Source of the DNA: Melioribacteraceae bacterium
GTDB taxonomy: Bacteria > Bacteroidota > Ignavibacteria > Ignavibacteriales > Melioribacteraceae
DNA length: 64,000 bases
Reading direction: 5' to 3'
NCBI GenBank assembly: GCA_015493615.1
Contig: WGCV01000041.1
Span: 62,001 to 126,000, forward strand
Below the pieces are notes generated by a model. It worked only from the letters and a program-made list of their open reading frames with translations. It made no database searches and was not told the DNA's origin. Shown here piece after piece: positions 21,466-45,723 of this stretch. The position numbers were made by a program, and so were the translations under genes. Within the stretch, counting starts at the first letter, position 1, and each line of letters opens with the position of its first letter.

Positions 21466-23523
21466 CTATTTCTTTTTTATCGCCTCTATAAGAAGATACT
21501 TCTTAAAATCTAATTTAATTTTATGCTCGCCTTTCTTTAAATCTTTGAGCTTTTTATTATTTACATAATCGTAAAGAGTGTAACCGCTGTTTTTATCTAA
21601 TCCTCTTAATTCAACTTTTCCTGAAAAATTCTTGGAATAAAAAGCGTAAAACAAATTGCCGTTTTTCTTTATTACGTGAGTTTCAGGTTTATCAAAGCCG
21701 ATGTCGTAAAGTTCTCCTAAATATTCTCCTTTCGGGAGCTGATATTTGTTGTAAATGTTAATCCACTTTTTCCATTCTTTTTCTTTGGCTTTTGTAAGAC
21801 TGACATCGCCGCTTTCGTTGTTAAGATAAACTCCGACGGGCCAAGTGAATTTTGTCCCGATAATTCCTCCGACGCCGATAGTTGATGCAAAGTCGTCCTT
21901 GTTGTCGCTTAACTCGACGTGGTCGCCGTAATAAGGCGCGTCGGGGCTTATAAGCGCTTTAAAAGTCTTTCCCTTTAAACGAATCTGCCACGATGAAACC
22001 GGATCGGAAGCCACTACTTGATTAAGATAGGGAAGCATATAAAAATTGTATCCCGTTCCGCACGGACAAACTTCGATTACCGCATTCGGATTTATTTTTT
22101 CGGCTTCGTCATATATTGTACGGAAAAAATTCGGCATCGCTTCGGTTGATTCTTCCGGTCTTTTATGATGATGCAATTTGTTGTAGCAAGGGGGAGCGCC
22201 GTTTAAGTGTTGTCCGTCTATCTTTAATCCGTCAAACTTCCAATCTTGAAGAAATTTACGGACTAATTTTTTTGTATATTCAAGCGTTTCTCCGTAAGCG
22301 GGGCAAAGATAGTAACTGTCCCACCAAGTGATATCCTCCGGCTTTTGGTCTTTATTCAGCAAAAGCATTTCCGGATGTTTTTTTATTAAATCGGTTCCGG
22401 GGTCAACTGCAAGAGGCGCCCACCAGAGTTTGGCTTTCAATCCTTGTTTATGAATCTTTTCAACAAACTTTTTCATGTCTTTTTCGCCGTGAGGGAATTT
22501 TTTGGGATTTAAATACCAGTCTCCCTCGGCTGTTTGCCAACCGTCGTCAAGTACAACCCATTTATATCCGAGCTTTTTTACTTCCGGCAAAGTTCCGAGA
22601 ACTTTATTCACCGTAAATCCGCGTTCATATCCCCAAGCGCACCAAATCGGTTCGTATGCGTCTTCAGGCGGCTTGTTAAAGCGAAATCCGCGGCGCTCCC
22701 GCATAAACTTGCCGAACATTTTCAGAGTGTGAAAATAATCCTTTTTATGCGTCGAGATAAAAGTCGTAAAAGTTGATAATGATTTCTGATGTTCGAGCGG
22801 GATTTTCTTTTCGTATTCAATTTTCACTTCCGTTCCGCCCAGCTTAGAATTGCGAACCACAGGCAGCGAAACCAGTTTAGGAACTTTCTCAACGTGACCG
22901 ATTGCGAAGCCGAAATCCTTATTCCAAATATCAACAATGGGAACTCCGCCGCCGTAATCCGTTGCGTTCATTCCCATATAGTTCTTCCGGTTAAATCCGT
23001 TTTTAACTTGCAAAACCCAATCGGGGCGGTCTTCGTAAGTCGCTCCCTGATAAGACCAGATTATTTCCGACGAGTCTTTCTGCGGAATTATGTAATCGTT
23101 ATTTACCCATTTATCTATGGTAATCTTTTTCTTTGAGAGATTCGTATAAGTTACTTTTGTAAAAATAAAATCGGGAAAATCATCATAGAGCGTTACGGTA
23201 AGAGTTTTAAGAATATTATTTTTGCTTTTTCCGGTGATTGTCCAAATTCGTTTTCCTTCTTTGACATTTCCCTCTTTTGGGGATATTAGCGAAAAGTCTG
23301 TGATTTTTCCACTGTCAGCGATAATATACTCGGACGGGGTAAATGAGTTTGTTATTTTTTTGTCGGGCGAATAATCGGAAAAGATTTGAGTGTAAAGTTT
23401 GTTGTTGATTTTAAGGTGTAAACTGCCCGATGTTATTGTTATTTCATTCTTCCGGTTGGAACACGACGAAAGAACAAGAGCTAAAACGAATAAGAATAAA
23501 TTGGCATATTTTATTTTTTTCAT
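21466..23523 (-). CDS. GH36-type alpha-galactosidase, lipoprotein
   Basis: A 685-residue lipoprotein; the signal peptide ends VLSSC (Cys21). The N-terminal beta-sandwich precedes a clan GH-D barrel: EPIWCAWGYERGF, WVVLDDGWQTAEGDWYLNP, KLWWAPL, then FDGLKIDGQHLNG containing the likely nucleophile Asp near residue 436 and VVASDPVSSW with the likely acid/base Asp near 506. The arrangement fits GH36-type alpha-galactosidases or alpha-N-acetylgalactosaminidases acting in the periplasm or on the outer membrane. It is the last gene of the minus-strand glycan run, 154 bases after the deacetylase-like gene. The exact substrate is not set by the sequence. Confidence 0.85.
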   Translation of the reverse strand: MKKIKYANLFLFVLALVLSSCSNRKNEITITSGSLHLKINNKLYTQIFSDYSPDKKITNSFTPSEYIIADSGKITDFSLISPKEGNVKEGKRIWTITGKSKNNILKTLTVTLYDDFPDFIFTKVTYTNLSKKKITIDKWVNNDYIIPQKDSSEIIWSYQGATYEDRPDWVLQVKNGFNRKNYMGMNATDYGGGVPIVDIWNKDFGFAIGHVEKVPKLVSLPVVRNSKLGGTEVKIEYEKKIPLEHQKSLSTFTTFISTHKKDYFHTLKMFGKFMRERRGFRFNKPPEDAYEPIWCAWGYERGFTVNKVLGTLPEVKKLGYKWVVLDDGWQTAEGDWYLNPKKFPHGEKDMKKFVEKIHKQGLKAKLWWAPLAVDPGTDLIKKHPEMLLLNKDQKPEDITWWDSYYLCPAYGETLEYTKKLVRKFLQDWKFDGLKIDGQHLNGAPPCYNKLHHHKRPEESTEAMPNFFRTIYDEAEKINPNAVIEVCPCGTGYNFYMLPYLNQVVASDPVSSWQIRLKGKTFKALISPDAPYYGDHVELSDNKDDFASTIGVGGIIGTKFTWPVGVYLNNESGDVSLTKAKEKEWKKWINIYNKYQLPKGEYLGELYDIGFDKPETHVIKKNGNLFYAFYSKNFSGKVELRGLDKNSGYTLYDYVNNKKLKDLKKGEHKIKLDFKKYLLIEAIKKK

Positions 23524-23677
23524 TGTAGGTAATTTCCTTTTACGTTGTAGTTTTATCTGTTACAGAATAGGGCAAACACTGATTTTACTGATATTTGCGG
23601 ATTTTTTATCCCGTTGTTCAACAATCCGATTATTAATTTGGTAAAATAACTTTTTAAATATTTTCCCGGATAATTTT

Positions 23678-25132
23678 TTATCTGTAAATTTTTATTTTTC
23701 CAGTTTCTCCCTGAAAATCATTTGCCGAAAGCGTAACAAAAAGCGAATGTGATTCTGCGTCAAAACGTTTTTTGACAACTCGGATATTTTTGTTCAACGA
23801 ACTAATCTTTTTAAAATTCTTTGTCTTAATTTCAATTTCCTGCGTTCCGTATGTTCTCAATTCAATTATAAGATTCTTGTTCTCTTTTTCGATTGAGTAA
23901 ATATTGCTTGTTCCGTTGTTAATAACAATATCATCCGGAATTTGCGTCCCGATTTTAATTTTAAGGGAATATTTTTTCTTCTCCAATTTCGGAATAAATA
24001 AAAAGCCGAAACCGGAATTTTCATAATACGACGGGATTTGTTTGCCGTCTATTTCAGCGTATGAAATATGTTCATTCTTTTCAAGTTTTGTTTTAAGCGT
24101 TAACAATCCGAGCAGCGAGTTTTCGTAAACTTCGTCCGGCATTTTCCGGTTGTCAATTACTATTTCTCCCGATTTTTTACGAGTTACTTTTGTGTATTTT
24201 TTGTACAGCCATTGAGAGTAGAATTGTTCCGTGTTTTTTGTGTAGTAATGCGTTGAGCTTGCCTGTATTTTCTTGAAGAAGTTAATCCATTTACGATTAA
24301 GCTTCTCTTGTAAAAAATCGTCCGTGGCAAGCCAATTGCTCCAATGAGTTTCGATTACGTTTGTCTTAAATTCTTTCAGCGGACGTTCCGGCAGCTTACC
24401 GACCATGTACCAATCGTTCCCGTAATTATAGCGGTTGAGAACAAGAACGCCGTGGTCTATTCCGCCGCCAAACTCAATCGGTGGATTTAATTCTTCAACT
24501 TTCTCAAACCAGGTGTTTGCGAATTTAATTCCGTATTGTTTCAGTACGCTTGTCGTGCTGTAATCTCCAGCGGGATTCCAATACAAAGCCCACCCGCAGG
24601 GGACAAAGCTTTCAGGAAACGAATGACCGTTTTTTTTATCCAAACCGTACTGCGATAAAATCTTCTTGTAACCTTCAACGTGTTCGTGCAAATCAGATTC
24701 GCGCCACGGCTTGTCGTTTTCCATATCATACCATTCGGCGCGAGTGCGTTTTCCGTTTTCCCAATGCTCATGACCGATTCCATGCAGACCGAATTCGAGA
24801 TGAGCGGAGTTTTCACGGACATAGTTCATTATCTTAATTTGCTCGGGAGAGATGTTCGCGGAATTATCCCATTTTTTTCCTGCTTGCGTTGCTGTAGGAT
24901 AATCCGTTAATATATTTAATCTGTCCATTTCCGCTAGGACAAATAAACCTTGGAATCTTATCCCCAGTTCTTTCCCTACTTCAACAAAAGGATGGTAATC
25001 GGAAGTTTCCATTTTTCTTTTAAATCCGATTCTCCACGGACCTCCGCTTTCGGCAAGGGAACCGCCGTTCATCCAACCTAAATCGTCGATTGCCGTCATG
25101 AACGGCTCCGGGAATATTACTCTGTTCAACAT
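23678..25132 (-). CDS. Polysaccharide-deacetylase-fold (NodB-like) protein, unknown substrate
   Basis: A 484-residue protein without a signal peptide. The N-terminal ~300 residues look like a NodB/DUF2334-type barrel: AIDDLGWMNGGS gives the Asp-Asp metal/base motif and EFGLHGIGHEHW a His-x3-His-type motif, followed by WALYWNPAGDYSTTSVLKQYGI. The C-terminal ~150 residues are beta-rich. Such folds remove acetyl groups from amino sugars or act as metal-dependent hydrolases. It lies between a T9SS paralog (18 bases upstream) and the GH36 gene, in a locus whose catabolic arm has AgaS but no recognised amino-sugar deacetylase. Assignment is by motif and context only. AGGAAA precedes the ATG. Confidence 0.6.
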   Translation of the reverse strand: MLNRVIFPEPFMTAIDDLGWMNGGSLAESGGPWRIGFKRKMETSDYHPFVEVGKELGIRFQGLFVLAEMDRLNILTDYPTATQAGKKWDNSANISPEQIKIMNYVRENSAHLEFGLHGIGHEHWENGKRTRAEWYDMENDKPWRESDLHEHVEGYKKILSQYGLDKKNGHSFPESFVPCGWALYWNPAGDYSTTSVLKQYGIKFANTWFEKVEELNPPIEFGGGIDHGVLVLNRYNYGNDWYMVGKLPERPLKEFKTNVIETHWSNWLATDDFLQEKLNRKWINFFKKIQASSTHYYTKNTEQFYSQWLYKKYTKVTRKKSGEIVIDNRKMPDEVYENSLLGLLTLKTKLEKNEHISYAEIDGKQIPSYYENSGFGFLFIPKLEKKKYSLKIKIGTQIPDDIVINNGTSNIYSIEKENKNLIIELRTYGTQEIEIKTKNFKKISSLNKNIRVVKKRFDAESHSLFVTLSANDFQGETGKIKIYR

Positions 25133-25150: not shown

Positions 25151-27277
25151 TTATAGCACAATAAAGATTTTTCCGGTTTTAACTCCTACATCGGAATATA
25201 TATAATAAAAATAAACTCCGGATGAAATCAGCTGATTGTATTTATTATGTAAATCCCAAATCGCAATACTCGGAGCCAGCGAGTTGCCGGAATCGTGATG
25301 AATTGTTTTAACTAATTCTCCGGCAGAGTTAAATATTTTAATAGTTGCTTTTAGAGGCATATTTACAAATTGCACTTTGTGTTCGTTTTGTCCCTGTTCC
25401 CAAAGCGCGGCGGCTTTGTACGGGTTCGGAACAACGCGAACGTCATTAAGATTTTTCTCGGCAACGGGAGCGTGCGCGACAACTTCGACCGTATTGTTAA
25501 CATCCTGCGGATTATTACTGAAGCTGTTTTCCAACGGACCGATAATTCCGTTTCCCGAATCGTATGCGGCGACATAGTAACGGTACTTAATTCCGTTTAG
25601 CACATTATTATCAGTAAATATATTAACTGTGTCGCCCGGAGAGAAAAGTTTATAATCATCGCCGGGTTGAACGACTACTCGTTGCTGCGACCAGTCATCG
25701 TCCCCGAGATAATACCATGCATAGCGGGGAAGAGTTTTATAATAACCGGTAATTCCGTCCGCCAAATCAAATTGTTTTAATGGAATGTAATGAGTTCCTC
25801 CGTCGAAATCTTTAAAAGTATCGTCGCCCCACGTAACTCCGCCGTCCGACGAACGATAGATTTTGTAACCTTCAAACTGCGGATCGTGTTCGCTGTTATT
25901 GCTCCATATCAGTTTAACTTTTCCGTTTTCGGGAACCGCTTCTAATTTCGGAGCCGGAGGAGCGTCAACCACTTCCCAGTTATTTTGATATAAAGTGATA
26001 GCGCGTTTTGCGTTTTCTTTCAAGTTCTTTTCGCTTGTCCCGAAAACGGCTGCAAAAATCAGCGTATCCGCTTCGCCCGGATTCAACGTAAAAGGAGCCG
26101 AACCGAGCGTCTGCAAACCGTCTGCTCCGAGTCCTAAGTAGTAGCCTGGTCCGCCGTTATCGGCGTCGGGAACGCCGTCGCCGTCAAAGTCGTCGTCAAT
26201 TCCATCACCGTTGCTGTCCTGCGGATCGTTTTCGTTAACTACATTGTAATCGAAATACCAGTCTGAACGCGCGCCGTTTCCGGCGGGAGTAGTAGCCTGC
26301 ATCCAAAAATGGAATGCGTCGTAAGTTGCCACTTTATGGTCGCCGCCCGGCATTCTTAAAGCGACAACTCCGGCATAAGGAATTTGGTCTGGAGGAATAG
26401 TTCCTCCGAACGGACTCTCTTCATATCCGTCGTCATCGGTTCCGTAAGCCACCTGTAAAGCGGGATCGTAATAATGGCGGTCTGCGTCATAGCCGATTCC
26501 GGGATAAAACTCGGGAATGAAACTGAAATCCGCATGAATCGCCGCCCGCATGTCGTGTATCGGAGCGCTGCCGACATTCCTGATTACATAAGCCCAAACA
26601 ATAAAATTTTCGTAAAGCGTTCCTTTCCACGCCATTCCGTGAATTATCATCTGCGTTTTTAGAAAGTTTGGGTAAACCCGTCCTGTCGCGGTCAACTGAT
26701 CGGTTCCACCCCAAGCCTCGACTACGGAAAAACTTTCCTGATCGGCAAGCTGTTTTCCGTTTTCACCAAATCCGGGCCAGCCGGTTGCGGAATCCCTTAA
26801 AACGGGATCGTTTAGAAGAGGATAAGTCGCGGGCCATGAAGTTGGCCATGTAGATGTATCCGTGCTCATGCAAGCTTTGTTTCCGTTAACGAATTCCGGA
26901 TAAGGGAAAAAGTGTTCCTCGTCCCAATATGCGGCGGGTCCCTCGTCCATTGTGGCATCGCAGAATGCGTCATAATTATCAGCCGGATTAGGCCAGCCGC
27001 CTACGGCTCCCGAATCCTGGTCAATAGGCGCTCCGACCGCGACTCCTACGCACGTTCCCCAGCTGTAACCGCTTCCGGCGGGGTATTCAAAAGCGGGCGG
27101 TCGCGCAAGGGATGAATTTTGTTCGTTCCCGTCGCAGAGTTCTCCGGTATTGTTAAATTGAGTTCTAACTTTATTAATATCAAAAATATTCCATCTCTGA
27201 TTAACCATCGGATTTAATATCTGAGCCGATATATTTCCGAAAAGAAAAATCAAAATAACTAAAAATGTTTTTTTCAT
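25151..27277 (-). CDS. Large exported surface protein, paralog 2 (FnIII and T9SS-like C-terminus)
   Basis: A 708-residue exported protein (signal MKKTFLVILIFLFGNISAQ). It begins NPMVNQRWNIFDINKVRTQF, shares most of its length with the 28346-30529 protein, and has an Asp-rich thrombospondin type 3-like calcium loop (SNGDGIDDDFDGDGVPD), a fibronectin type III domain (PPAPKLEAVPENGKVKLIW) and a FlgD-like/T9SS-like C-terminal domain ending GVKTGKIFIVL. The middle part is a large unknown domain. Proteins of this build recur next to TonB receptors and PorV-like proteins in Ignavibacteria, suggesting a surface-exposed binding partner of the receptor. Ligand unknown. It is 9 bases downstream of the PorV-like gene. 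Confidence 0.72.
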   Translation of the reverse strand: MKKTFLVILIFLFGNISAQILNPMVNQRWNIFDINKVRTQFNNTGELCDGNEQNSSLARPPAFEYPAGSGYSWGTCVGVAVGAPIDQDSGAVGGWPNPADNYDAFCDATMDEGPAAYWDEEHFFPYPEFVNGNKACMSTDTSTWPTSWPATYPLLNDPVLRDSATGWPGFGENGKQLADQESFSVVEAWGGTDQLTATGRVYPNFLKTQMIIHGMAWKGTLYENFIVWAYVIRNVGSAPIHDMRAAIHADFSFIPEFYPGIGYDADRHYYDPALQVAYGTDDDGYEESPFGGTIPPDQIPYAGVVALRMPGGDHKVATYDAFHFWMQATTPAGNGARSDWYFDYNVVNENDPQDSNGDGIDDDFDGDGVPDADNGGPGYYLGLGADGLQTLGSAPFTLNPGEADTLIFAAVFGTSEKNLKENAKRAITLYQNNWEVVDAPPAPKLEAVPENGKVKLIWSNNSEHDPQFEGYKIYRSSDGGVTWGDDTFKDFDGGTHYIPLKQFDLADGITGYYKTLPRYAWYYLGDDDWSQQRVVVQPGDDYKLFSPGDTVNIFTDNNVLNGIKYRYYVAAYDSGNGIIGPLENSFSNNPQDVNNTVEVVAHAPVAEKNLNDVRVVPNPYKAAALWEQGQNEHKVQFVNMPLKATIKIFNSAGELVKTIHHDSGNSLAPSIAIWDLHNKYNQLISSGVYFYYIYSDVGVKTGKIFIVL

Positions 27278-27286
27278 CGTCGGCGC

Positions 27287-28330
27287 CTATAAATCTATTC
27301 TGATTGAAAATTGATTGAGATTGCCAAATACTCCGTATTTTAAGAATAAGTAGTCCAGCGTGATTTTATAATCGGTAAAGTTGGAAAAATCAAGTCCGCC
27401 TCCAATTGTATAAGAAACTTCGTCATAATTAAATTTGTATCCGGCACGGAGATATAGTGTTTTTTCGAATCCGAGCTCTCCGCCGAGGTTGTAGCGAACA
27501 TCGTAATCTCTGCTGTCCAATATATCAAACGCCGTAAGTAGCGTCCAAGTTTGGTTATTAATAAAGTAGTTTGAAACGCCGAATCTGAAAAGAAGGGGAA
27601 TTTCCCAATCTGCCGTTAAAAGTTCTCCCGGAATTTGTTTTCCCGTGGGACTTCCCGGTATAACGTAAGTAATATCCAAATCTCTTCCGGTAAATTTCAT
27701 TTTGCTCCCGAAGTTAGCCAACGACGCGGCGAGACGAAGATTATTGTTGAAGAAGGAAGTCAGGAAAACCGCTCCCACGTCAAATCCGAAAGCTTCCGCG
27801 TGAGCGTTTGCGATATCTTCGCGAATATATTTTACTTTTACTCCGAACGAAAATCTGTCTGTCATTTGTCTCGAATATCCCAAGCCGATGCAGAAATCGC
27901 TCGCGGAAAAGAATCTGCCGGTTCCGTCCTGGTCATAAACCGTAGTTTCTTCAATAGTTCCGTAATCAAGATATTGCAAATCGGCTCCGATAGTTCCCGC
28001 TTCTCCTAAGTTTAACGCTCCGGCAATGTAGGAATTTCTTGTCCCAACAAGCCAGTTCATTGTGGAAAAACTTAAGGAGACATCTTTATTTATTCTCGAT
28101 AAAGCTCCCACGTTCCAGAACATTGCCGCCGGTCCGTCAACTGTGGCGATTGCCGCGTCTCCCATTGCCATTACTCGCGCGTCAACTCCGATTTTAAGGA
28201 AGTTTGCCGCCGAAGTCCCCGAATAATCAACGTTTTGCGCCGATAAATTATCCGCGGCGGCGATAAGCGTTAACATCGAAGCGGTTATCATAATTAATAT
28301 TTTTCTACTTTTGAATAAATTGCCTTTCAT
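27287..28330 (-). CDS. PorV/PorQ-family outer-membrane protein
   Basis: A 347-residue protein with a signal peptide (ends NLSAQ) and a FadL-like/PorV barrel. The typical N-terminal segment is ANFLKIGVDARVMAMGDAAIATVDGPAAMFWN, followed by repeated amphipathic strands ending FSIRIDL. PorV is the outer-membrane shuttle of the T9SS that carries cargo from the translocon to the attachment complex. Here it is placed 15 bases after one large exported paralog and 9 bases before the other, downstream of a TonB receptor, so it is likely dedicated to exporting or anchoring those two proteins rather than being the general-purpose PorV. Confidence 0.82.
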   Translation of the reverse strand: MKGNLFKSRKILIMITASMLTLIAAADNLSAQNVDYSGTSAANFLKIGVDARVMAMGDAAIATVDGPAAMFWNVGALSRINKDVSLSFSTMNWLVGTRNSYIAGALNLGEAGTIGADLQYLDYGTIEETTVYDQDGTGRFFSASDFCIGLGYSRQMTDRFSFGVKVKYIREDIANAHAEAFGFDVGAVFLTSFFNNNLRLAASLANFGSKMKFTGRDLDITYVIPGSPTGKQIPGELLTADWEIPLLFRFGVSNYFINNQTWTLLTAFDILDSRDYDVRYNLGGELGFEKTLYLRAGYKFNYDEVSYTIGGGLDFSNFTDYKITLDYLFLKYGVFGNLNQFSIRIDL

Positions 28331-28345
28331 TACTAACTCCTGACA

Positions 28346-30529
28346 TTAGAGTATTACAAAAATTTTACCTGTCTTAATTCCGACCGGAGAATTTATATAA
28401 TAAAAATAAACTCCGGGCGCTACCAATTGGTTATATCTGTTTTTTAAATTCCATTTCTCAATGCTTGAAGATGAGTTATGGCGCAAAGTTTTAATATGCT
28501 CGCCGTTGCTGTTGAATATCGATATATCGGCTTTTACCGGCAATCCGGTAAACTGAATTGTGTGTTCGCTAAAAGACGTTTCCCAGATTGCGTTTAATTT
28601 GTACGGATTCGGGACGACTTTAACGTTTTGCAGTCCGGATTCGGCAGGCGGCAGTTCGGGACGCACCGCGACGGTATTATTTAATTCCGCGGGATTGGGC
28701 GCGGGACTATTTTCCAACGGTCCTATTATTCCGTTCCCCGAATCGTAAGCGGCAACGTAATACCGGTAGTTAATTCCGTTAAGAACCGTTCTGTCAATAT
28801 AAACATTAACAGAATCGCCGTTATCGAAAGAATTTATTTTTCCGTTGATATGAAGACCTTTGAGAGTGTCATTTTCGACGACGGTGCGAATTTGAGTCCA
28901 ATTATCATCGCCGAGATAGAACCAAGCAAATTCCGGCAGCGTTTGATAATAATCTTTAACGCCATCTTCCAAATCGTACTGGGCAAGGGGAACGTAGTGA
29001 ACGCCGCCGTCGAAATCGGTGAAACTTTCGCTTCCCCAAGTTTGTCCGTTATCTTCCGAACGGTAAATCTTGTAACCTTCAAACTGTTCGTCGGCTTCGC
29101 TGTTTGTACTCCAGACAAGAGTTACGTTTCTGTCCCCAATGAACGCTTCAACTTTCGGGGCGGGCGGGGCGTCAACGATTTCCCAGTTGTTCCGGTAAAG
29201 AGTAATAGCATTTTTTGCGTTTTTCTTTATATCTTTCTCGCTGTTTCCGAAAACGGTCGCGAAAATTAAAGTGTCGGTTTCGCCGGGAGCCAAATCGAAA
29301 GGATTTGAGCCGATTATCTGCAATCCGTCCGCTCCTTGTCCAACGTAATAGCCGGGACCGCCGTTCTGAGTGTCAGGAATTCCGTCTCCGTCAAAATCAT
29401 CGTCAATCCCGTCTCCGTCGCTGTCCTGCGGATCGTTTAAGTTAAGCAGATTCCATTTGTAATACATCTCCGGTTCTCCGCCGCTTCCGGAAGGGGAAGT
29501 CTGTCCCTGCCAAAAGTGAGCGGCGTCATAAGTTTTAATTTTGTGATCGCCTCCCGGCATCCTTAAAGCGACAACTCCCGCCCAAGCGATTTTATCAGGA
29601 GATAACGCTCCGCCTCCGACAGGATCTTCTTCGTAACCGTCGTCGTCGCTTCCGTAGGCAAGCTGTAGTGATTGATCGAAATAGTGTCTGTCGGCGTCGT
29701 AGCCAACCCCGGGAATAAATGCAGGCAAAAACCCGAAATCAAGATGAACTCCCATTCTCATTTGATTAATCGGTTTTCTGTTCGGATTGCGGATAATATA
29801 AACCCAGACAATAAAATCATCGTAAAGGGTTCCTTTCCACGCCATTCCTCTCATCATCATTTGAGTGCGCAGCCATCTCGTTTTGGAATTTCCGCTTCCA
29901 AGCTGGTCGGTTCCGCCCCAGCCGAATGTTAAGCTCATCATTTCCTGATCGGCAAGCTGTTTCCCGTTTTTACCGAATCCGGGCCAGCCGGTTGCGCTAT
30001 CTTTAAGAATCGGAATATCCGGAAGGGAATTGTTTTGAATAATATCTCCGTTTATTCCATCTGCCGGTATGTAATTCGGCCATTTATCCGGCCAAGTTGA
30101 GGGCCACGAAGCGGGGTCTGTGCTAACCGAAGCGGAAACCGGATTAACGAATTCAGGATAAGGCGCAAAATGTTCTTCGTTCCAAAAGTCAGCCGGACCT
30201 TCATCCATTGCTCCATCGAGATAAGGGAGATTTTCCGGATTTACTCCGCCTACAACGGAACTGTCCTGATCGGCAGGCGCTCCCACTACAACAGCGACGC
30301 AGGTTCCCCAGTTCAGTCCGCTTCCCTGCGGATACTCAAAAGAGGGAATTCTTGCAAGCGAGTAGTTCTGATTATTGCCGTCGTTTAACATCCCAACATT
30401 GTCGAAAGTGGTCGCCACTTTATTAATGTTCATTACATTCCACCTCTTAAACGCCATTGGGTTATTCTGCGGCAGAATTTCGGTAAATGCAAGCAGCGCG
30501 ATAATTATTACGGGGAAAATCTTATTCAT
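28346..30529 (-). CDS. Large exported surface protein, paralog 1 (FnIII and T9SS-like C-terminus)
   Basis: A 727-residue exported protein (signal ends EILPQ). It shares its architecture and long identical stretches with the 25151-27277 protein (GTCVAVVVGAPADQDS, AMDEGPADFWNEEHFAPYPEF, DADRHYFDQSLQLAYGSDDD, DSDGDGIDDDFDGDGIPD). An FnIII domain (PPAPKVEAFIGDRNVTLVW) and a FlgD-like C-terminus ending GIKTGKIFVIL follow. The calcium-type Asp loop suggests a metal-stabilised extracellular protein. It starts 4 bases after the TonB receptor gene. It may be the functional counterpart of a SusD-like lid or surface binder, but no SusD fold is visible. Confidence 0.72.
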   Translation of the reverse strand: MNKIFPVIIIALLAFTEILPQNNPMAFKRWNVMNINKVATTFDNVGMLNDGNNQNYSLARIPSFEYPQGSGLNWGTCVAVVVGAPADQDSSVVGGVNPENLPYLDGAMDEGPADFWNEEHFAPYPEFVNPVSASVSTDPASWPSTWPDKWPNYIPADGINGDIIQNNSLPDIPILKDSATGWPGFGKNGKQLADQEMMSLTFGWGGTDQLGSGNSKTRWLRTQMMMRGMAWKGTLYDDFIVWVYIIRNPNRKPINQMRMGVHLDFGFLPAFIPGVGYDADRHYFDQSLQLAYGSDDDGYEEDPVGGGALSPDKIAWAGVVALRMPGGDHKIKTYDAAHFWQGQTSPSGSGGEPEMYYKWNLLNLNDPQDSDGDGIDDDFDGDGIPDTQNGGPGYYVGQGADGLQIIGSNPFDLAPGETDTLIFATVFGNSEKDIKKNAKNAITLYRNNWEIVDAPPAPKVEAFIGDRNVTLVWSTNSEADEQFEGYKIYRSEDNGQTWGSESFTDFDGGVHYVPLAQYDLEDGVKDYYQTLPEFAWFYLGDDNWTQIRTVVENDTLKGLHINGKINSFDNGDSVNVYIDRTVLNGINYRYYVAAYDSGNGIIGPLENSPAPNPAELNNTVAVRPELPPAESGLQNVKVVPNPYKLNAIWETSFSEHTIQFTGLPVKADISIFNSNGEHIKTLRHNSSSSIEKWNLKNRYNQLVAPGVYFYYINSPVGIKTGKIFVIL

Positions 30530-30533
30530 TTTT

Positions 30534-33077
30534 TCAATTCCATATTTTTATTCCGAATTGAATTGTTCTTCCCGGTCCGTACATCGAGGGATTATTTGTG
30601 TAATCGTGCGATGTCGCCGGATTTGCATCGTCGCCGGGTATTCCGGAATCGGAATAAACCCACCAAACATTTTTGTCGTTGGTAGCGTTCAATACCTGAA
30701 TAAAAAACTGTTCCTTGGTACCGAGCAAATTAAAGTTTTTAAAGAGGTTAATATTTAACTGATGAACCCATGGACTTCTTTCGGCGTTCGGAGCAAAAGC
30801 CGAGCGGGTATAAGGGAATCCCGATGAGTAGCTCCCGTAAATCGAAAATCCGTATCCGCTTTTGGTTTGATAATAGACGTTTGCTCTGAACGAATGGGGC
30901 TGATCCCAGTTGGCGGGGAATGTTCTTGATTCGTCCGTCGCCATTTGGAACAGTACGGAGGAGCTTACCAGCGTTTGCGTAAAGGTGTAATTAAAGAAAG
31001 CGGAGAAGTTATTGGAAAAATGTTTCTTCAGCGATATCTCAAAACCTTTTACGGTTGAATAATCGATATTCCCCATCATCTGAAAACGTTTTCCTTCGGA
31101 AGTTTCATTCATCACAACGCCGATTAAATCGCGCGTCTTACGATAGAATGCGGTAACGTCAAGCGACACTCTGTCGCTTACGAGCGCCTGAATTCCGAAT
31201 TCGTAATTGGTGGTTTTCTCGGTTTTTATTTCGGTATCGGCTATCGGAGTGTTCTCCAACTGCGGATTGGGTCTGTATTCGCCTGCGGACGCCAAGTAAT
31301 AAGTTCCTTCGTAAACTTTAAAGAAATTCGGGTACTGATAAAATTGTCCGTAACCGAAACGGATTGCAATTTTATCGGCAATCGGGAAACTGATTCCAAA
31401 ACGCGGCGTAACGTAATATTCTTTTTTTGATTGAGTCAGCTTTGCCGATAAATTTGTTAAGTCGGATAAATTAAGCAAAACTTTTCTGTTGGGATTGATA
31501 TAATCAAAGCGCGCGCCGAGATTTATAATCATTCCCATATCGTCGAATTCCATCTTCTCGTTTACATACAAACCGCCATGCTGCGGTCTGTAATCATACT
31601 TTTCGAGCACCGCGCCGCCGTCCGGATTTTTTCTTTCGAGATAAGTATGATACTGCTCAAAAGTTCCTCCGACGGAAAGATTGTGAATTTTATTTATCTG
31701 CCAAACATAGTCGGCTTTTCCTTCGTATCTGTCGAACTTTGTTTCAAACCAAACCCAGTCTTCGCCGGTAACCGAGAACTCCGCGGTTCCCGTCTGCGGT
31801 AAAATGCTGTAGTAAGAAGGGTCGTCGTAAACTCTGGAAATAAAATTGCGGCTGTATTTAGCCACCGAAACATTCAAAAAACTTTTCGGATTAAATACAT
31901 AGTTGGCTTTTCCGTAAATTAACTGACTGTTCAATCTTACGCGCGGCGTTCCGTAAGGATTATATTTGAAATAATGATTGTAAACGCCTCTGTTTGATTT
32001 GGAGTAAAAACCTCCGAGTGTAAGATGCAGACTCGTAACCGGATTCCAGATTATTCGTCCTTCGCTGAACTGTGTGTCGAGAAACTGCATCGGAACTTTA
32101 ATCGGCACGCCGCTTTTATCTCTGCCTTCGCTGTTTACGTATTCGGGATAAATGTAGCCGTAAATATATCCGTCCGTGCTGTAAACTCTGTGCGAAAAAA
32201 TTACGCCGAGCTTTTTATAGAAGGGGAGCGCGGAATTGAAATAAACCTCGCCGCTGTATGTATTGTTGGAAGCGTTTTGTAAAACGTTGTCGGTAAAACC
32301 TTTGAGCGCGAATTTCGGAACGGGGGAAAGCTGACTGTGAGGAGTAATGCTTACAACGCCCGACATCGCTTCGCCGTATTTCGGTCCGAAAGTTCCCGAA
32401 TGCGTTTCCAACGAACTTATCCCGAGTTCGCTTATTTGGTCGATGTAAAATCCGCCCCAGAGCTGATCGTTAACGGTAATTCCATCGTAAAGGAAAAGCG
32501 TTTCATTTTCCCTGCCTCCGCGGAAGTGTAATCCGTCGGAAGGAACCGTTGCAAACTGCCCGAACGCCGGAAGCTCGCTTACCGGTTGTGTTCTAATATT
32601 TTTGACGATTCCGGCTTCCTGAGTAAGCAAATCTTCAATAGTAGATTTAGGCAGACGCGCAATTTCTTCGGATGTTCTTGCCTGAACCTTACTCGTTAAG
32701 TCTTTCTGCACCGGTGGGTTTTTATATTCCACAACCGTTACTTCCTGCATATTCACGCTTCCCATTGAAATCTTAAAATTTAATTTGGTCGTTAATCCCG
32801 AAACGACTTTAACGTCTTTTTGTTCTACGGTTTGATATCCGACCATTTTGGCAAGCACATTGTAAGAACCGGGCGGAACGTTTAATATGATGTAAGAACC
32901 GTTAATATCAGTCGCGGAACCGATTGTAGTTCCTTTTAGAATTATATTAACGCCGGGCAAAGGTTCTCCGGTTTTTTTATCGGTTACTTTTCCCGCTATT
33001 TTTCCGGCGCTTTGCGCGGCAGCCTGGCCTGCTGCGATAAAAAGCATAATCAAAAAATAAAATATTTTCTTTTTCAT
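30534..33077 (-). CDS. TonB-dependent outer-membrane receptor with CarboxypepD_reg domain
   Basis: An 847-residue protein: signal peptide; CarboxypepD_reg-like domain at about 24-105 (GKVTDKKTGEPLPGVNIIL, YNVLAKMVGYQTVEQ); plug domain (LPKSTIEDLLTQEAGIV; LHFRGGRENETLFLYDGITV); then a 22-strand-type barrel ending TIQFGIKIWN. It would import a bulky ligand across the outer membrane with energy from TonB. It is shorter than classical SusC proteins and no susD gene is beside it; instead a PorV-like gene and two exported paralogs follow. Most likely ligand by context: galactose- or galactosamine-containing oligosaccharides. Confidence 0.88.
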   Translation of the reverse strand: MKKKIFYFLIMLFIAAGQAAAQSAGKIAGKVTDKKTGEPLPGVNIILKGTTIGSATDINGSYIILNVPPGSYNVLAKMVGYQTVEQKDVKVVSGLTTKLNFKISMGSVNMQEVTVVEYKNPPVQKDLTSKVQARTSEEIARLPKSTIEDLLTQEAGIVKNIRTQPVSELPAFGQFATVPSDGLHFRGGRENETLFLYDGITVNDQLWGGFYIDQISELGISSLETHSGTFGPKYGEAMSGVVSITPHSQLSPVPKFALKGFTDNVLQNASNNTYSGEVYFNSALPFYKKLGVIFSHRVYSTDGYIYGYIYPEYVNSEGRDKSGVPIKVPMQFLDTQFSEGRIIWNPVTSLHLTLGGFYSKSNRGVYNHYFKYNPYGTPRVRLNSQLIYGKANYVFNPKSFLNVSVAKYSRNFISRVYDDPSYYSILPQTGTAEFSVTGEDWVWFETKFDRYEGKADYVWQINKIHNLSVGGTFEQYHTYLERKNPDGGAVLEKYDYRPQHGGLYVNEKMEFDDMGMIINLGARFDYINPNRKVLLNLSDLTNLSAKLTQSKKEYYVTPRFGISFPIADKIAIRFGYGQFYQYPNFFKVYEGTYYLASAGEYRPNPQLENTPIADTEIKTEKTTNYEFGIQALVSDRVSLDVTAFYRKTRDLIGVVMNETSEGKRFQMMGNIDYSTVKGFEISLKKHFSNNFSAFFNYTFTQTLVSSSVLFQMATDESRTFPANWDQPHSFRANVYYQTKSGYGFSIYGSYSSGFPYTRSAFAPNAERSPWVHQLNINLFKNFNLLGTKEQFFIQVLNATNDKNVWWVYSDSGIPGDDANPATSHDYTNNPSMYGPGRTIQFGIKIWN

Positions 33078-33110: not shown

Positions 33111-34508
33111 TTATTTTGCATAATTGTTTTTACTAACGGCGATGTATTTAAGACTTCCGTTTATTTTTGTCTTGCTGATTTCCCGCATAGTCTTGGTTTC
33201 GATTATATGCAGCGACGAATCGCCCGGAGTTACGGCGTAAAGCAGTTCGCCGGAGTTTGTAATTCCGAGTTTATCTATTTCCTGTCCGAAAGTGAAAACA
33301 TTTTCGATACTCTGCGTTGAAACGTTTATCTTCAAAATTCCGCCGTCCGTGTCGGAGCCGGAATATTTGTAGTAAGATGAATAATAATAATCGCCCTTGA
33401 TTGTTCCGTCTCCAGCGTAAGGATAGCCGGTCTCAATCGGACTTTCGGGAGAATTTGTCTGCGTATTGAAAACGGCAATTTTATCGGTTCTTTTCTGCGG
33501 AATAAAAAGATATTTGCCATCTTCGGATACTTCAATATCGATTCCCTTATTGTCGGTCAGAAGCGTATCTATAATATAATTATCGTTAAAGTCCTGAGCG
33601 TTAACAACCTCAACATCCTTATTTGTGCTCGATATAAAATATAACTTATCCGTGAGTGAAGAATAAGCTACATCGAGCGGCTTAAAATTATTTGTAAACG
33701 AATAAGTTGTCTCGGTTTCGTAAGTATCCGTATTTATTACCGAAAATGATTTTGCCGATTTATTTGTTACATACGCTTTGTCCGGACTGAACCCGACATT
33801 TGTAGGACCTAAACCGACTTGCACAACCTTTGCAACCTCAAAACTCTGCGGATCGATTAACGAGATCGTTCCGTCCGTTGTCTTCAGATTAACCATCCAG
33901 AGATAATTTCCTTTCGGCGAAAACTCAAGAGCCGCCGTTTGGTAATCCTCCGCAGTCGCGTTTACGTAAAGACTATCGATATATTGATTTAATTTTCCGG
34001 AACGGTAAAGGACTTGCTTTTCCACTTTATCCCTTACAAAAACATAGGGGAAGCCGCCGTCCGAATAATCTCCTTCGGTAAAAAACCAAAACTTTTGAGG
34101 AACGTCTTCGTCGTTTGGGGAAATCATTGAATTACCGTGTGCATCTCGCACTCCTCCGTGTACCGAAACGGTATAAACTTCGGCTCTGTTGTAAGAACTT
34201 CCCGGCGTGAAAATAACAACGGTATCGCTTTCGGGAGCGTATGAGAAACTGCCGTTAATTTTCCCGCTTATACTTTCCACATTAACATTTGCAGGGAAAG
34301 TCGATAAATCCATTTTCTCATTAAAAAACATCTTGACGGGCTGATTAACCGGAACAACAAGATTTGAAATACCGAGAGTGTCAAACTTAACGAATTTCGG
34401 GCGAGTATTTTCCACCGGCTCGGTAGGCATTCTATCCGGAATACAACTTTGAAAAAATGCCATTCCAATAAGAAGCGTTAAAACAATTCTAAATATTTTA
34501 TTTTGCAT
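33111..34508 (-). CDS. YncE-like beta-propeller lipoprotein with Ig-like domain
   Basis: A 465-residue lipoprotein (FFQSC, Cys22). Residues about 35-135 form a Big_5/SbsA Ig-like domain (FDTLGISNLVVPVNQPVKMF; TVSVHGGVRDAHGNSM). The rest is a seven-blade YncE/YVTN-type propeller with repeats such as ISLIDPQSFEVAKVVQVG, FSVINTDTYETETTYSF and LHIIETKTMREISK. Such proteins bind glycans or partners at the surface or in the periplasm; enzymatic activity is not indicated. It lies directly after a terminator-like hairpin, 33 bases before the TonB receptor gene. Confidence 0.78.
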   Translation of the reverse strand: MQNKIFRIVLTLLIGMAFFQSCIPDRMPTEPVENTRPKFVKFDTLGISNLVVPVNQPVKMFFNEKMDLSTFPANVNVESISGKINGSFSYAPESDTVVIFTPGSSYNRAEVYTVSVHGGVRDAHGNSMISPNDEDVPQKFWFFTEGDYSDGGFPYVFVRDKVEKQVLYRSGKLNQYIDSLYVNATAEDYQTAALEFSPKGNYLWMVNLKTTDGTISLIDPQSFEVAKVVQVGLGPTNVGFSPDKAYVTNKSAKSFSVINTDTYETETTYSFTNNFKPLDVAYSSLTDKLYFISSTNKDVEVVNAQDFNDNYIIDTLLTDNKGIDIEVSEDGKYLFIPQKRTDKIAVFNTQTNSPESPIETGYPYAGDGTIKGDYYYSSYYKYSGSDTDGGILKINVSTQSIENVFTFGQEIDKLGITNSGELLYAVTPGDSSLHIIETKTMREISKTKINGSLKYIAVSKNNYAK

Positions 34509-34570: not shown

Positions 34571-36268
34571 CTACTTGAGCAACATCATTTTTTTAGTTAC
34601 GGAATAATTGTTTGTAGAGATTCTGTAAAGATAAACGCCGCTTGTTACTGAATTTCCGGCGCTGTCTTTGCCATCCCAGCGGACTTTATTTGTTCCGGCT
34701 GCGAGAGCTTTATTGTTTATTAATGTGGCAACTTTTTGTCCCAGCATATTATAAACATCGACTGTGATATTTTGTGTATGCGAAAGTTGGAAAGAAATAA
34801 TAGTAGATGGATTGAACGGGTTCGGATAATTCTGAACCAAACCGAATCCTTTAACAGTCGAATAATCGGGCGCGCTATCTTCAACGCCGGTAATTAATGC
34901 ATGGTCGGCAATTTTCTTAACTGAATTACCGGAGATGAAATTATAATCAAGAGCATAATAAACCGGCGGGTCATCATCGCTCCAGCCTTCAACGGCGGTG
35001 TTGGGCCAATATTCTTCGTTGTCCCAGTTCTCATCTCCCACAACATATACCCAAGGCATAATATCAGTGCCTGCATTAATTGCTGTTCTCGGAACTGCAA
35101 CTTCAACAATGTTATCATCGTCGTTGACGGCAAATGTTGCGTAAGCGTCCGGAACCTCGACAAAGTTTTCGTTAGCCCCGTTCCAATCGCCGGCATAATA
35201 GTAAATCGGAATTTGGGTTAAATTGCTGTCGGGATTTAACGCAGTGCTTAAATCAACCATATAGTCAACGGTTAACGGCCAGAATCCGCCGTATCCTAAG
35301 CCTGTTGTATCTCCCCAATTAATATTGAAGAAAATCTGAAAAGCGGGAGGATTGGAATAATTTGTGTACATTCCTCCGAAAGTTGCGCTCGGGTCAATAT
35401 CAATTCTGATGTAAAAATTGTTCGAATCGCTTGTAGTGTAAATATCTTTTAAGTCGAATTCCGGTCCGGTCGGCATATCGCCCAATTCCTCGGCTATCTC
35501 TCCCTGATCTGCAGGAGGAATGTTTGCCCAATCAAGCATATCGCCGTCGATTTGAATGCGGTTGTCGATTTGGTCGCCCTGCGCCTGAACAACAGCGTTT
35601 TGATCGAGATACCAGAAATCATAACGCAGCATATATGCGCCGCCTTCCGTCGGAAGCTGGTCTGCGCCGTCAGCCCACTGGTAGTTTCCCACTGAGTAAA
35701 CCCAAGGTCTGAACTCAGGACCGAAGTTTACGAGGTCGCGAGGGATTGCAAATTCCATTGCATTTCCATCGTCGTTAATCGCCATTGGAATATTTGCGAG
35801 AAATTCAAATTCGCCTTCCGCCCAAGTCGGAATTCTTCCGCCGTTGTATTTGTACAGCACTCCGTATTTTACTGTAGAATCGGGGTTAAGAGTAAGAGCA
35901 AGATCGATGGAGTAATTGTAAGCGTTGTTCCACCAGCCCCAGTCGAATCCTGACGTGTCGCCGATTTCGGTATCAAAATCAAACTCAAAAACGGGAGGAT
36001 TGTCGAAGTTATAGAAATTGTTAAAACTGGCGTCGTCCGCAATGTCGATTCTTACATACACATACGCGGAATCGTGTGTGATGTAAAGATGTTTCAAATC
36101 AAAATCGTGATAATCGGAGTTGGTAACATCTCCGACCGGTTCGGCCACTTGGTCTCTGTCCAATGGAGCGATATTTGCCCAATCGAGCATATCGCCGTCA
36201 ATCTGTATCTGTGCGAAAGATACAGAGTAAGCAATAAGGACAGCAATTAATGTAAGCATTTTTTTCAT
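34571..36268 (-). CDS. T9SS cargo with two CBM9-like domains
   Basis: A 565-residue protein: signal peptide (ends YSVSFAQ), then two tandem CBM9/DOMON-like beta-sandwiches of about 220 residues each, both beginning IQIDGDMLDWANI (near residues 22 and 242), then a type A sorting domain (VQNYPNPFNPSTIIS ... KKMMLLK). CBM9-like domains bind sugar ends or act as extracellular recognition modules. The duplication implies avidity or two ligands. It lies 15 bases downstream of the DUF4832 gene and just before the internal terminator. Confidence 0.82.
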   Translation of the reverse strand: MKKMLTLIAVLIAYSVSFAQIQIDGDMLDWANIAPLDRDQVAEPVGDVTNSDYHDFDLKHLYITHDSAYVYVRIDIADDASFNNFYNFDNPPVFEFDFDTEIGDTSGFDWGWWNNAYNYSIDLALTLNPDSTVKYGVLYKYNGGRIPTWAEGEFEFLANIPMAINDDGNAMEFAIPRDLVNFGPEFRPWVYSVGNYQWADGADQLPTEGGAYMLRYDFWYLDQNAVVQAQGDQIDNRIQIDGDMLDWANIPPADQGEIAEELGDMPTGPEFDLKDIYTTSDSNNFYIRIDIDPSATFGGMYTNYSNPPAFQIFFNINWGDTTGLGYGGFWPLTVDYMVDLSTALNPDSNLTQIPIYYYAGDWNGANENFVEVPDAYATFAVNDDDNIVEVAVPRTAINAGTDIMPWVYVVGDENWDNEEYWPNTAVEGWSDDDPPVYYALDYNFISGNSVKKIADHALITGVEDSAPDYSTVKGFGLVQNYPNPFNPSTIISFQLSHTQNITVDVYNMLGQKVATLINNKALAAGTNKVRWDGKDSAGNSVTSGVYLYRISTNNYSVTKKMMLLK

Positions 36269-36283
36269 TGTTGAACTCCTTTT

Positions 36284-38518
36284 TTATTTGAGGTAAACTA
36301 ATTTCGAGGAATAAATTTGCTTTGGCGTAACCGCTATGAAAAAGTAGATTCCGCTATTAACTGTTTTGTTAAAATTATTTATTCCGTTCCATATTATTTC
36401 TTTTCCGTTAAGATTATCGGTTGAGAAAGTTTTAACCAATTCTCCGAGACAGTTATAAATTTTTATTGATTCTATCTTACTTGATATACTTGATAAATTA
36501 ATATGAACCGTACTGTTAAACGGGTTGGGGGAAGCGGTAATCCGAGGATGATTGGCGCTCGCTTTGATAAAAGAATCATTTACGCCGGTCAGCGCAATAG
36601 TATATTCAAACGAATTCGACTGATAGGAATTCGGAGCGTAATCATCGGGATAAGAATCGTTGTTATCATTAACATTAAAGACTAAGCCGATTGTTTGGTT
36701 CGGTTCAACGCCAATCTGCGAGAAAGGCGCTGCTATTTCAACTCGTTTGTTATCTGACGAATAAGCGGAAACAACGCTGCCGATGTAATTCCAGCCCCAT
36801 TCGCCGTTATTTCCCGCATAGCTGTAAAGTATATCATTCTCTATCATAAAATCGAATCCTCCGAAACTATCTCCCGAATGGAATCCTGTAGCGCCGGAGT
36901 TATCCGTATCAAAGAAAACATGGTAGAAATATGAGCCGCCGAAACTTCCCGATAAAGAATAACTGATAAAAAGCTCTCCATCCGAATTCGCAGCCCACAT
37001 ATCAAGCAAATCGGTATTTGCATTTAACGCGTCGCCGGAGTTTTCGGCGTTCGCTCCAATGTCCAATTGTTGAACGCCGTTCCAATCGGAAAAATCGCCA
37101 TCGATAATAATCTCGCCGCCTCCGGGCGGGGGAGTAATGCCTCCGGAAAAGGAGACGAAATAATTTGAGCCGGAGTAATCTTCACCCGCGGCGTTGTTGT
37201 TAATTGTTACCGAAGCAAGCAAATCGTTGTAGCCTGTTGAGTCTTCCCAAACATTTTCGTTTGCCAAGCGGATTGCGTAATCTTTTCTGTCGTGCAATGA
37301 TTTTGCCGTATCGGGAAGGAAGAGGAACGCTTCGTAGTTTCCTTCGGGCATATCGGATGGAATTCCTCCGGTTATCTGAACGGAAGTCGAATCTCCGGAG
37401 AACCAGAAACGAGGATCGATTGCAGTTGTCAGTCTGTACTTTGCGTTAGTCGAGTTGTTGCGTAAAATTATTTCGCATCCTCTCGGATTAAAGGTATTTC
37501 CGAAGCCGACATTTTTAACATTGAAATTCAAAGTAAAAATCCCGTTGGGTTTTATCGAATCCGAAATCTCGGCGTGTTGAAGTACAAATCTGTAACCGAG
37601 CCGTTTTTTAATTTCAGGCATACATCCGCCGTCAATCCATTCTTGTAAAACATCTTCGTTATAATCGCTGTTGACTGTCGTCCAATGCATTCGATTTAAA
37701 TCTATTAGAGCGTTTGAGCAAACGCTGTACTGGCTCGGCTGGCATGTTTCTCCGCTCTGGGGCAGAAACCTATTATCGGCGTTAAGATAATCCTTGTCGC
37801 CTTCGATGTCGTTCCAGAGGTAAGTTCCCATATCGGTTTCATCGGCAAGGAAACAGTCGTTGTGCGCGCCGGTTCGCGAACGAAAAGAGCCGCTGTACGC
37901 CGAATCAATATCAAGAGGTTCGTTGTAATTAAAAATCAAACGTTTGTAGTTAGGCGTTCTTACAACAACATCTATCTGCGGCGGAAGAGCGTTAAGCAAT
38001 GCAAATAAAACTGTTCGTCTGTCCGCCGTGTTATTTAATCCGTGACTTGAATAATACCACTCGCCCCAAGCTCCGATAAATCCGGCGTCCACAAACGCGA
38101 TTACATCGGCGTTTGCCCGAAGTACAGGTTCCAACTGACTGATATGCAACAGTACAGTATCCAAAGCTGCGTCTGTTCCGTTTTGCTGATCCGTATAAAA
38201 AAATCGTGGAATTACTTTAACTCCGCCTTCTCTCGCGACGTTAAGATCCGATTGAATTTGATTCAGATAATCTTGCGAAATCGGCGAAGTTGTAAATTGA
38301 TGCAGATTATAAATTTTGTGAATCAGCGTCATTCCCTGAGCTTTAATGCTGTTTACGAATGAGGGACTTATATTGCCGTATTTATCGGCATAAAATCCTC
38401 TTACTGGATTCGTAAAATTTGCTTCGCTTTCGGTATATGTTATTGTTGTTAAATTTTGAGCGTTCGTGTTAATCGTCCAAAGTAAAATAACAAAAAATAT
38501 AAGTAGTTTTTGCAGCAT
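36284..38518 (-). CDS. T9SS cargo, DUF4874/DUF4832 plus CBM9-like domain
   Basis: A 744-residue protein: signal peptide; DUF4874-type barrel (FTNPVRGFYADKYGN; VIAFVDAGFIGAWGEWYYS); DUF4832-type beta domain (QHAEISDSIKPNGIFTLNF); a CBM9-like sandwich near 470-655 opening IIIDGDFSDWNGV; and a T9SS sorting domain (ITASPNPFNSTVHINLS ... KLVYLK). The DUF4874/DUF4832 pair resembles a glycoside-hydrolase barrel with its accessory sandwich; the two Glu in GEWYYS and in the first barrel half could be catalytic, but no activity is established. Its place among glycan genes supports a carbohydrate-active role. Confidence 0.8.
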   Translation of the reverse strand: MLQKLLIFFVILLWTINTNAQNLTTITYTESEANFTNPVRGFYADKYGNISPSFVNSIKAQGMTLIHKIYNLHQFTTSPISQDYLNQIQSDLNVAREGGVKVIPRFFYTDQQNGTDAALDTVLLHISQLEPVLRANADVIAFVDAGFIGAWGEWYYSSHGLNNTADRRTVLFALLNALPPQIDVVVRTPNYKRLIFNYNEPLDIDSAYSGSFRSRTGAHNDCFLADETDMGTYLWNDIEGDKDYLNADNRFLPQSGETCQPSQYSVCSNALIDLNRMHWTTVNSDYNEDVLQEWIDGGCMPEIKKRLGYRFVLQHAEISDSIKPNGIFTLNFNVKNVGFGNTFNPRGCEIILRNNSTNAKYRLTTAIDPRFWFSGDSTSVQITGGIPSDMPEGNYEAFLFLPDTAKSLHDRKDYAIRLANENVWEDSTGYNDLLASVTINNNAAGEDYSGSNYFVSFSGGITPPPGGGEIIIDGDFSDWNGVQQLDIGANAENSGDALNANTDLLDMWAANSDGELFISYSLSGSFGGSYFYHVFFDTDNSGATGFHSGDSFGGFDFMIENDILYSYAGNNGEWGWNYIGSVVSAYSSDNKRVEIAAPFSQIGVEPNQTIGLVFNVNDNNDSYPDDYAPNSYQSNSFEYTIALTGVNDSFIKASANHPRITASPNPFNSTVHINLSSISSKIESIKIYNCLGELVKTFSTDNLNGKEIIWNGINNFNKTVNSGIYFFIAVTPKQIYSSKLVYLK

Positions 38519-41165: not shown

Positions 41166-41170
41166 CCCGA

Positions 41171-44317: not shown

Positions 44318-44321
44318 CTGA

Positions 44322-45506: not shown

Positions 45507-45723
45507 TTTAGGCCTAAGTTTTCTTTTTATTTTCTTTCGCAAAGTAAGTAATTTTTATTTTCTTGTCAAGAACCTTTTAAAACCTTTTTTATTTATTTAA
45601 AATACAAAGGAAAAATAAGCTATTATTTAAATATCGCTTCAATTTATCTTAATTAATTGACTTTATGGTTTCGAAAACTTATTTTTGATTTAATTATTAA
45701 TTAAAAAAGAAATCGGAATTAAA
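45507..45723. promoter_or_regulatory. Divergent agaS/agaR control region with repeated CCTTTT motifs
   Basis: A 217-base AT-rich gap between divergent genes. AACCTTTT occurs at 45571 and again at 45581, exactly one helical turn apart, with CTTTC at 45534 and the inverted form AAAGG at 45606. DeoR/AgaR-family regulators bind short CTTTC/CTTTT-type repeats, so this is a reasonable operator. The palindrome ttaggcctaa (45508-45517) overlaps the agaS leader. Confidence 0.45.
45541..45569 (-). promoter_or_regulatory. Possible agaS promoter
   Basis: On the minus strand TTGACA (45569-45564) and TACTTT (45546-45541) are 17 bases apart; TACTTTG also resembles the Bacteroidota -7 element. The AACCTTTT repeats lie just upstream of the -35. 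Confidence 0.35.

Follow-up and report, generated by a model that had tools for sequence, protein, structure and literature searches.

A gene module of TonB receptor, T9SS-tail proteins and PorV-family barrel in Melioribacteraceae and related bacteria: a candidate outer-membrane glycan importer without SusD

The SusC/SusD pair counts as the hallmark of glycan uptake in Bacteroidota and related phyla and is the usual sign by which a polysaccharide locus is identified. The partner of the receptor, SusD, is a helical protein. The SusC/SusD systems of Bacteroidota combine a TonB receptor bearing a CarboxypepD_reg domain with a tightly linked surface partner, and glycan enzymes and a regulator are encoded nearby.

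Pairing of an outer-membrane barrel with the tail of a particular T9SS cargo is known from other contexts. Type B tails in Flavobacterium and Porphyromonas depend on cognate PorP/SprF barrels, which are usually encoded by neighbouring genes and which also anchor the cargo (PMC12618676, PMC9143113). The structure of SprA with PorV and a tail is a further precedent (PMC10994853). In the PorQ-PorZ and PorV-PorU pairs of the attachment complex, a PorV/PorQ-family barrel keeps the uncleaved tail of one protein, and a review of the T9SS proposes that PorV-like barrels shield certain tails from cleavage (PMC10202324).

The open literature that we searched (subscription papers and preprints were outside its scope) held no description, as a system, of the module presented here. 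The genome paper on Caldithrix mentions TonB receptors for cobalamin and thiamine only (PMC5317091), and that on Melioribacter roseus notes a single SusCDE operon together with Por sorting tails (PMC3534657). The closest arrangement is the alginate locus of Rhodothermus marinus, in which tonB, hypA (2181 nt, with a T9SS tail), hypB (PorV/PorQ family) and hypC (1398 nt) lie beside alginate lyases and hypA-C were left hypothetical (PMC9530828).

A SusD-less gene module and its neighbourhood

We analysed a stretch of 64,000 nucleotides of a Melioribacteraceae genome (the window). Four intact ORFs on the minus strand encode, in this order, a TonB receptor, an exported protein of 727 residues (parA), a PorV-family barrel and a 708-residue paralog of parA (parB), separated by gaps of 4, 15 and 9 bases (Table 1). 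A first-pass annotation of the same DNA had reported this order and spacing, and the ORFs lie exactly so. It had drawn the borders of the unit around these four genes. They do form the core, but the conserved block is larger and takes in the propeller lipoprotein upstream and g484 and the GH36 gene (21466-25132) downstream. Upstream of the receptor, three exported proteins are encoded whose T9SS-type tails are canonical in two and weak in one. Beyond the DeoR-family regulator, the plus strand carries a second, distant melibiase-like protein (46774-49494) and a sodium:solute symporter (49985-51463), relatives of both of which occur in some related loci.

Table 1. Features of the module and the genes around it (positions in the window)
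Feature	Position	Strand	Remarks
GH36 lipoprotein	21466..23523	-	Full-length relative of the Flavonifractor plautii alpha-galactosaminidase FpGalNase (E 2e-80)
g484	23678..25132	-	No family match; AIDDLG and HGIGH motifs; putative NodB-like deacetylase from these motifs
parB, 708-aa paralog of parA	25151..27277	-	Domain order as in parA
PorV/PorQ-family outer-membrane barrel, 347 aa	27287..28330	-	NF033709; specialised paralog, not the general PorV
parA, exported protein, 727 aa	28346..30529	-	Signal peptide I; beta-supersandwich ~22-453; FnIII ~455-620; T9SS-type tail ~630-727
TonB-dependent receptor, 847 aa	30534..33077	-	N-terminal CarboxypepD_reg, plug, barrel; PF00593 84 bits; PF13715 76 bits; TIGR04056 81.6 bits (cut-off 368); not SusC by the SusC model
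Lipoprotein, lipobox FFQSC, Ig-like and YncE-like beta-propeller	33111..34508	-	Conserved part of module loci, placed before the receptor or after PorV
Exported protein, two IDGDMLDWANI repeats	34571..36268	-	Canonical type A T9SS tail; conserved upstream of the module
DUF4874/DUF4832 exported protein	36284..38518	-	T9SS tail; part of the conserved locus
Exported protein, 603 aa, choice-of-anchor Q domain	38530..40341	-	Weak T9SS-type tail; in the locus of the nearest relatives
Class II aldolase, PfkB kinase, EamA transporter, GatZ/KbaZ, AgaS-family SIS isomerase	40338..45542	-	Catabolic genes, same strand run
DeoR-family regulator	45724..46518	+	Divergent

The receptor resembles those of the SusC/SusD systems in its N-terminal CarboxypepD_reg domain, a feature of SusCD-type receptors, and in its neighbourhood of glycan enzymes and a regulator. 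It differs in scoring far under the cut-off of the SusC model, which places it outside SusC/RagA. No SusD/RagB partner was detected among the ten proteins scanned around the locus, in agreement with the earlier reading of the unit as SusD-less, and the sole PF07980 (SusD) match of the genome, on contig C42, adjoins its own, different receptor. The predicted surface partner in the module is also of another kind, being a beta-supersandwich protein with a T9SS tail and without a lipobox, and a PorV-family gene belongs to the unit. Since the beta-supersandwich is unrelated to the helical fold of SusD, the module would be an analogue of SusCD and not a variant of it, and any function that SusD and the paralogs share would be shared by analogy.

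Recurrence of the module in related genomes

The first-pass annotation had suggested a distinct SusD-less module and had named recurring linkage as its test. This linkage does recur, and strongly. In a scan of bacterial and archaeal genomes, the window-type module was found in 18 loci or fragments from Ignavibacteriota, Calditrichota and their relatives. A broader trio of receptor, exported T9SS-tail protein and PorV-family barrel occurs repeatedly in this genome and many times in relatives. Contigs of Melioribacteraceae and Calditrichota that are long enough show the propeller protein, receptor, parA, PorV and parB, followed usually by (g484 and) GH36. Three loci at a greater distance (L019, L021 and L022) encode a single exported protein, which comes last, after receptor, PorV and propeller. 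A genome of the same genus carries receptor, exported protein, PorV, propeller, exported protein, g484 and GH36, mostly at 38-60% identity to the window; its PfkB and aldolase genes adjoin the module, so that linkage to the galactosamine genes is conserved too. The full paralog family was found in 4 of 395 genomes in a search of the phylum (E 1e-30), which makes the window subtype rare, though the general trio is common. Two of the copies lie in records titled Deltaproteobacteria (L017) and Caldisericaceae (L012), which are probably misassigned bins; the PorV of the former is nearly identical to that of a member of the Calditrichaceae (L016).

The genome under study encodes 9 TonB barrels, 14 PorV-family matches and 1 SusD. 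Four of the nine receptors belong to a trio (in the window and on contigs C44, C49 and C60), and a fifth forms the one SusCD pair. Other PorV-family genes, on C3, C10, C29 and C43, lie outside trios; not every member of the family is thus tied to a receptor. Two PorV-family genes of this genome (L031:6391-9001 and L033:2-6652) adjoin canonical-T9SS-tail proteins with no receptor beside them, and other dedicated PorV pairs may exist.

The linkage of receptor and barrel was directional. Among the matches listed for 19 genomes of the family, at least 25 PorV-family genes had a receptor upstream on the same strand within 8 kb, against 2 downstream and none on the opposite strand. Nine genomes reached through the loci, one of them shared with the former set, gave 65 cases upstream (about 2.5 expected), none downstream and 1 on the opposite strand among the matches listed. 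Neither set of genomes is a random draw of all phyla. Every pair that was fetched holds an exported module-tail protein, which lies between receptor and PorV in all but one. Among 20 of the best seemingly unpaired PorV-family matches, 19 adjoin a receptor and the 20th stands at a contig end; a tail protein is visible in 18, and the other two were seen without their upstream side. Seven of the 20 represent a second arrangement, in which the exported protein lies upstream and the receptor directly before PorV. In several genera (L069, L075, L076, L079 and L081) the second arrangement comprises a supersandwich-type exported protein, a canonical-tail protein, a ~510-aa protein, the receptor, PorV and a ~360-aa protein ending in NNRILRFILSTDID.

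Profiles of the window-type and general-type exported proteins match over their full length (hhalign probability 100, E 1.4e-75), and the window-type profile matches the exported protein of the second arrangement over the C-terminal two thirds (E 1.3e-24). By these profile matches, the exported proteins of the trios are one family. Most modules have one exported protein per PorV, and the two paralogs of the window are a local elaboration. In the paralog tree the parB group is supported, the parA group is weak (0.35), and the proteins of L016, L017 and L018 are placed apart, a topology that fits one duplication or two.

The trio also appears outside the family. A genome of another family in the same phylum (L086) has a receptor, a parA homolog (about 30% identity), PorV and a lipoprotein. 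The alginate locus of R. marinus (PMC9530828) has a candidate trio, alike in gene order, and the lengths of hypA, hypB and hypC are close to those of parA, PorV and the propeller protein; the locus differs in its substrate and in having one exported protein instead of two. Together, the R. marinus order and the L086 locus suggest that the trio serves glycan loci beyond Melioribacteraceae.

The exported paralogs and their PorV-family barrel

parA and parB are 63% identical end to end. Domain scans gave no family match for either except weak T9SS-type tails (Por_Secre_tail/CHU_C), and an HMM search of the PDB with the paralogs found no match by sequence. FnIII-like and Asp-rich (DSDGDGIDDDFDGDGIPD) segments are present, as the first-pass annotation had noted along with the T9SS-like C-terminus. 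An AlphaFold2 model of parA, built from 26 sequences, had a mean pLDDT of 76, with values below 50 at residues 497-533 and elsewhere. Residues 22-453 of this model form a beta-supersandwich that matches the N-terminal domains of GH94 and GH116 enzymes (VIA Z about 17-18, rmsd about 3.5-4 over ~255-280 residues) and also those of GH65.

This fold raises the question of whether the paralogs are enzymes, perhaps degenerate, related to the GH94/GH116 phosphorylases and glucosidases, in which case the module would degrade glycans at the surface more than import them. The resemblance to GH94, GH116 and GH65 is confined to the predicted N-terminal beta-supersandwich. The (alpha/alpha)6 barrel that carries catalysis in those enzymes is absent from the parA model, which past residue 453 consists of beta structure, FnIII and the tail, with no helical domain; the paralogs differ from GH94/GH116 enzymes in lacking this barrel and in being fused to FnIII and a T9SS tail. 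We regard an enzymatic role as highly improbable, and a non-catalytic, glycan-binding supersandwich is the reading that we carry forward.

The genome encodes SprA (943 bits), PorU (845 bits) and a canonical PorV, and a T9SS is therefore present. Against the type A tail model TIGR04183 (cut-off 23), the parA protein scored 22.9 (27.1 when the genome was searched), and parB 19.6-20.1. NCBIfam matches of the locus proteins included neither a type B tail nor the PorP/SprF family. A profile of the module tails built without this genome scored its five module proteins at 75-150 bits; no canonical tail in the fetched loci exceeded 30. Over the whole genome, a profile that included those five proteins themselves scored them at 113-158 bits and the next protein at 36. 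All five of the strong module-tail proteins of this genome adjoin a PorV-family gene. About 97 tails of the genome exceed the TIGR04183 cut-off, far more than its 14 PorV-family genes.

The barrel of the module passes the PorV/PorQ family model NF033709 (205.8 bits, cut-off 90) and falls below the canonical PorV model NF033710 (92.2 bits, cut-off 250), on which the PorU-linked PorV of the same genome reaches 244.6 bits. In the PorV-family tree the clade of the window is well supported (100/99); long branches leave the module barrels unsettled against the other members, and we claim no single origin for them. The first-pass annotation had proposed a dedicated local PorV, and what the data bear out of this is a specialised paralog, distinct from the general PorV and paired with one tail subclass. 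The simplest reading is that the module PorV would be a dedicated partner for a type A-like tail subclass. Since the tails of parA and parB, at 22.9 and 19.6, come close to the type A cut-off of 23, the canonical PorV might serve them instead.

PorV is itself one of the FadL-like barrels, and the module PorV proteins weakly match the FadL/TodX and UPF0164 models as well. With a general PorV encoded elsewhere in the genome and available to the paralogs, the local barrel might be no T9SS shuttle but a FadL-like channel through which part of the substrate diffuses. Its best score is as a member of the PorV/PorQ family, its only solved relative found by sequence is the PorV of F. johnsoniae, and its gene stands beside that of a T9SS-tail protein in nearly all modules seen. 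The channel reading is quite unlikely in our view, and we continue with a shuttle.

For such a shuttle, the type B substrates and their PorP/SprF partners (SprB-SprF and PG1035-PorP) are a precedent for how it may work, in that cargo with a special tail is encoded beside its own 14-strand-barrel partner (PMC12618676, PMC9143113). The module departs from this precedent in three respects: its barrel belongs to the PorV/PorQ family, the tail falls into a divergent type A-like subclass, and the unit includes a TonB receptor. PorQ-PorZ and PorV-PorU are alike in the family of the barrel; the module partner differs from theirs in being a predicted supersandwich protein tied to a nutrient receptor, and not a sortase or PorZ.

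Predicted substrate and function

AgaS, GatZ, PfkB and aldolase are steps from galactosamine 6-phosphate through the tagatose pathway (Aga/Gat), and FpGalNase serves to convert blood from type A to type O. The alignment of the GH36 protein with FpGalNase covers nearly the full length. Nine active-site residues of that enzyme have been named (PMC11762096); eight are kept (W317, D346, D347, W387, K461, D463, C513 and D532) and Y464 is not, in an alignment read by eye in which D463 needs a gap moved by hand. The combination of an FpGalNase-like GH36 with AgaS, GatZ, PfkB and aldolase points to a glycan with alpha-linked galactosamine or GalNAc as the predicted substrate of the module.

g484, which had no Pfam or NCBIfam match, has a DD motif (AIDDLG) and an HxxxH motif (HGIGH), and its fold prediction failed (pLDDT 46.6 from 4 sequences). 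The motifs suggest a NodB-like deacetylase, an activity that would fit the removal of acetyl groups from GalNAc. Its relative in the same genus (L088:14688-16217) has a signal peptide; the copy in the window has none. The DUF4874/DUF4832 protein is kept in the galactosamine loci of the module type and may be an enzyme for such glycans that has so far escaped notice. The occurrence of FpGalNase-like GH36 proteins in an environmental Melioribacteraceae genome and its relatives also marks them as possible new galactosaminidases.

Taken together, the block probably encodes an outer-membrane glycan importer akin to SusCD, in which the T9SS exports the surface partner and a PorV-like shuttle of the module's own retains it. 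The first-pass annotation had proposed that surface-anchored paralogs, exported by a local PorV, replace the SusD lid; the gene order and recurrence described above support this proposal in its anatomy, and its functional part stands as a prediction. The TonB receptor would be the importer of the glycan. parA and parB would be exported by Sec and then pass through SprA to the cell surface, where the local PorV-family barrel would capture the tail class that they share, as a dedicated shuttle and probably a lasting anchor, in the way that PorP/SprF serves type B tails. Kept at the surface beside the receptor and in complex with it, each paralog would bind glycan through its non-catalytic supersandwich, over or beside the receptor, as a lid like SusD in SusCD, and TonB would drive import. 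The lipoprotein GH36 would trim the substrate, and AgaS and the tagatose enzymes would catabolise it.

Polysaccharide loci often encode exported glycan binders that do not act as lids. The paralogs may accordingly be ordinary T9SS adhesins or glycan binders of the SusE/SusF type, co-regulated with a receptor that works alone and engaged in no complex, and the PorV paralog may just add export capacity. Operon membership by itself explains such co-regulation, and other exported proteins with canonical tails are encoded in the same gene run. Two observations speak against this: the trio persists in widely differing loci whose flanking genes change, and the tail subclass has a PorV-family neighbour in every one of its five cases in this genome. 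We therefore consider independent binders rather unlikely, and an importer with a T9SS-exported lid remains the reading that we prefer.

The recurrence of the trio raises, tentatively, a wider prospect. The modules may form a distinct class of TonB-dependent importers, whose lid, a beta-supersandwich protein, is exported by the T9SS and kept in place by a dedicated PorV-family shuttle, and such importers may be a main replacement for SusCD in Ignavibacteriota, Calditrichota and perhaps Rhodothermota; we put this forward with somewhat less than even confidence. If the module does the job of a SusCD pair, a large number of uptake loci in Ignavibacteriota and Calditrichota have so far gone unrecognised, the functions of the T9SS extend to the assembly of importers, and PorV paralogs can be expected to pair with specific cargo. 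The cultivated Rhodothermus marinus, with its alginate locus, makes the question directly testable.
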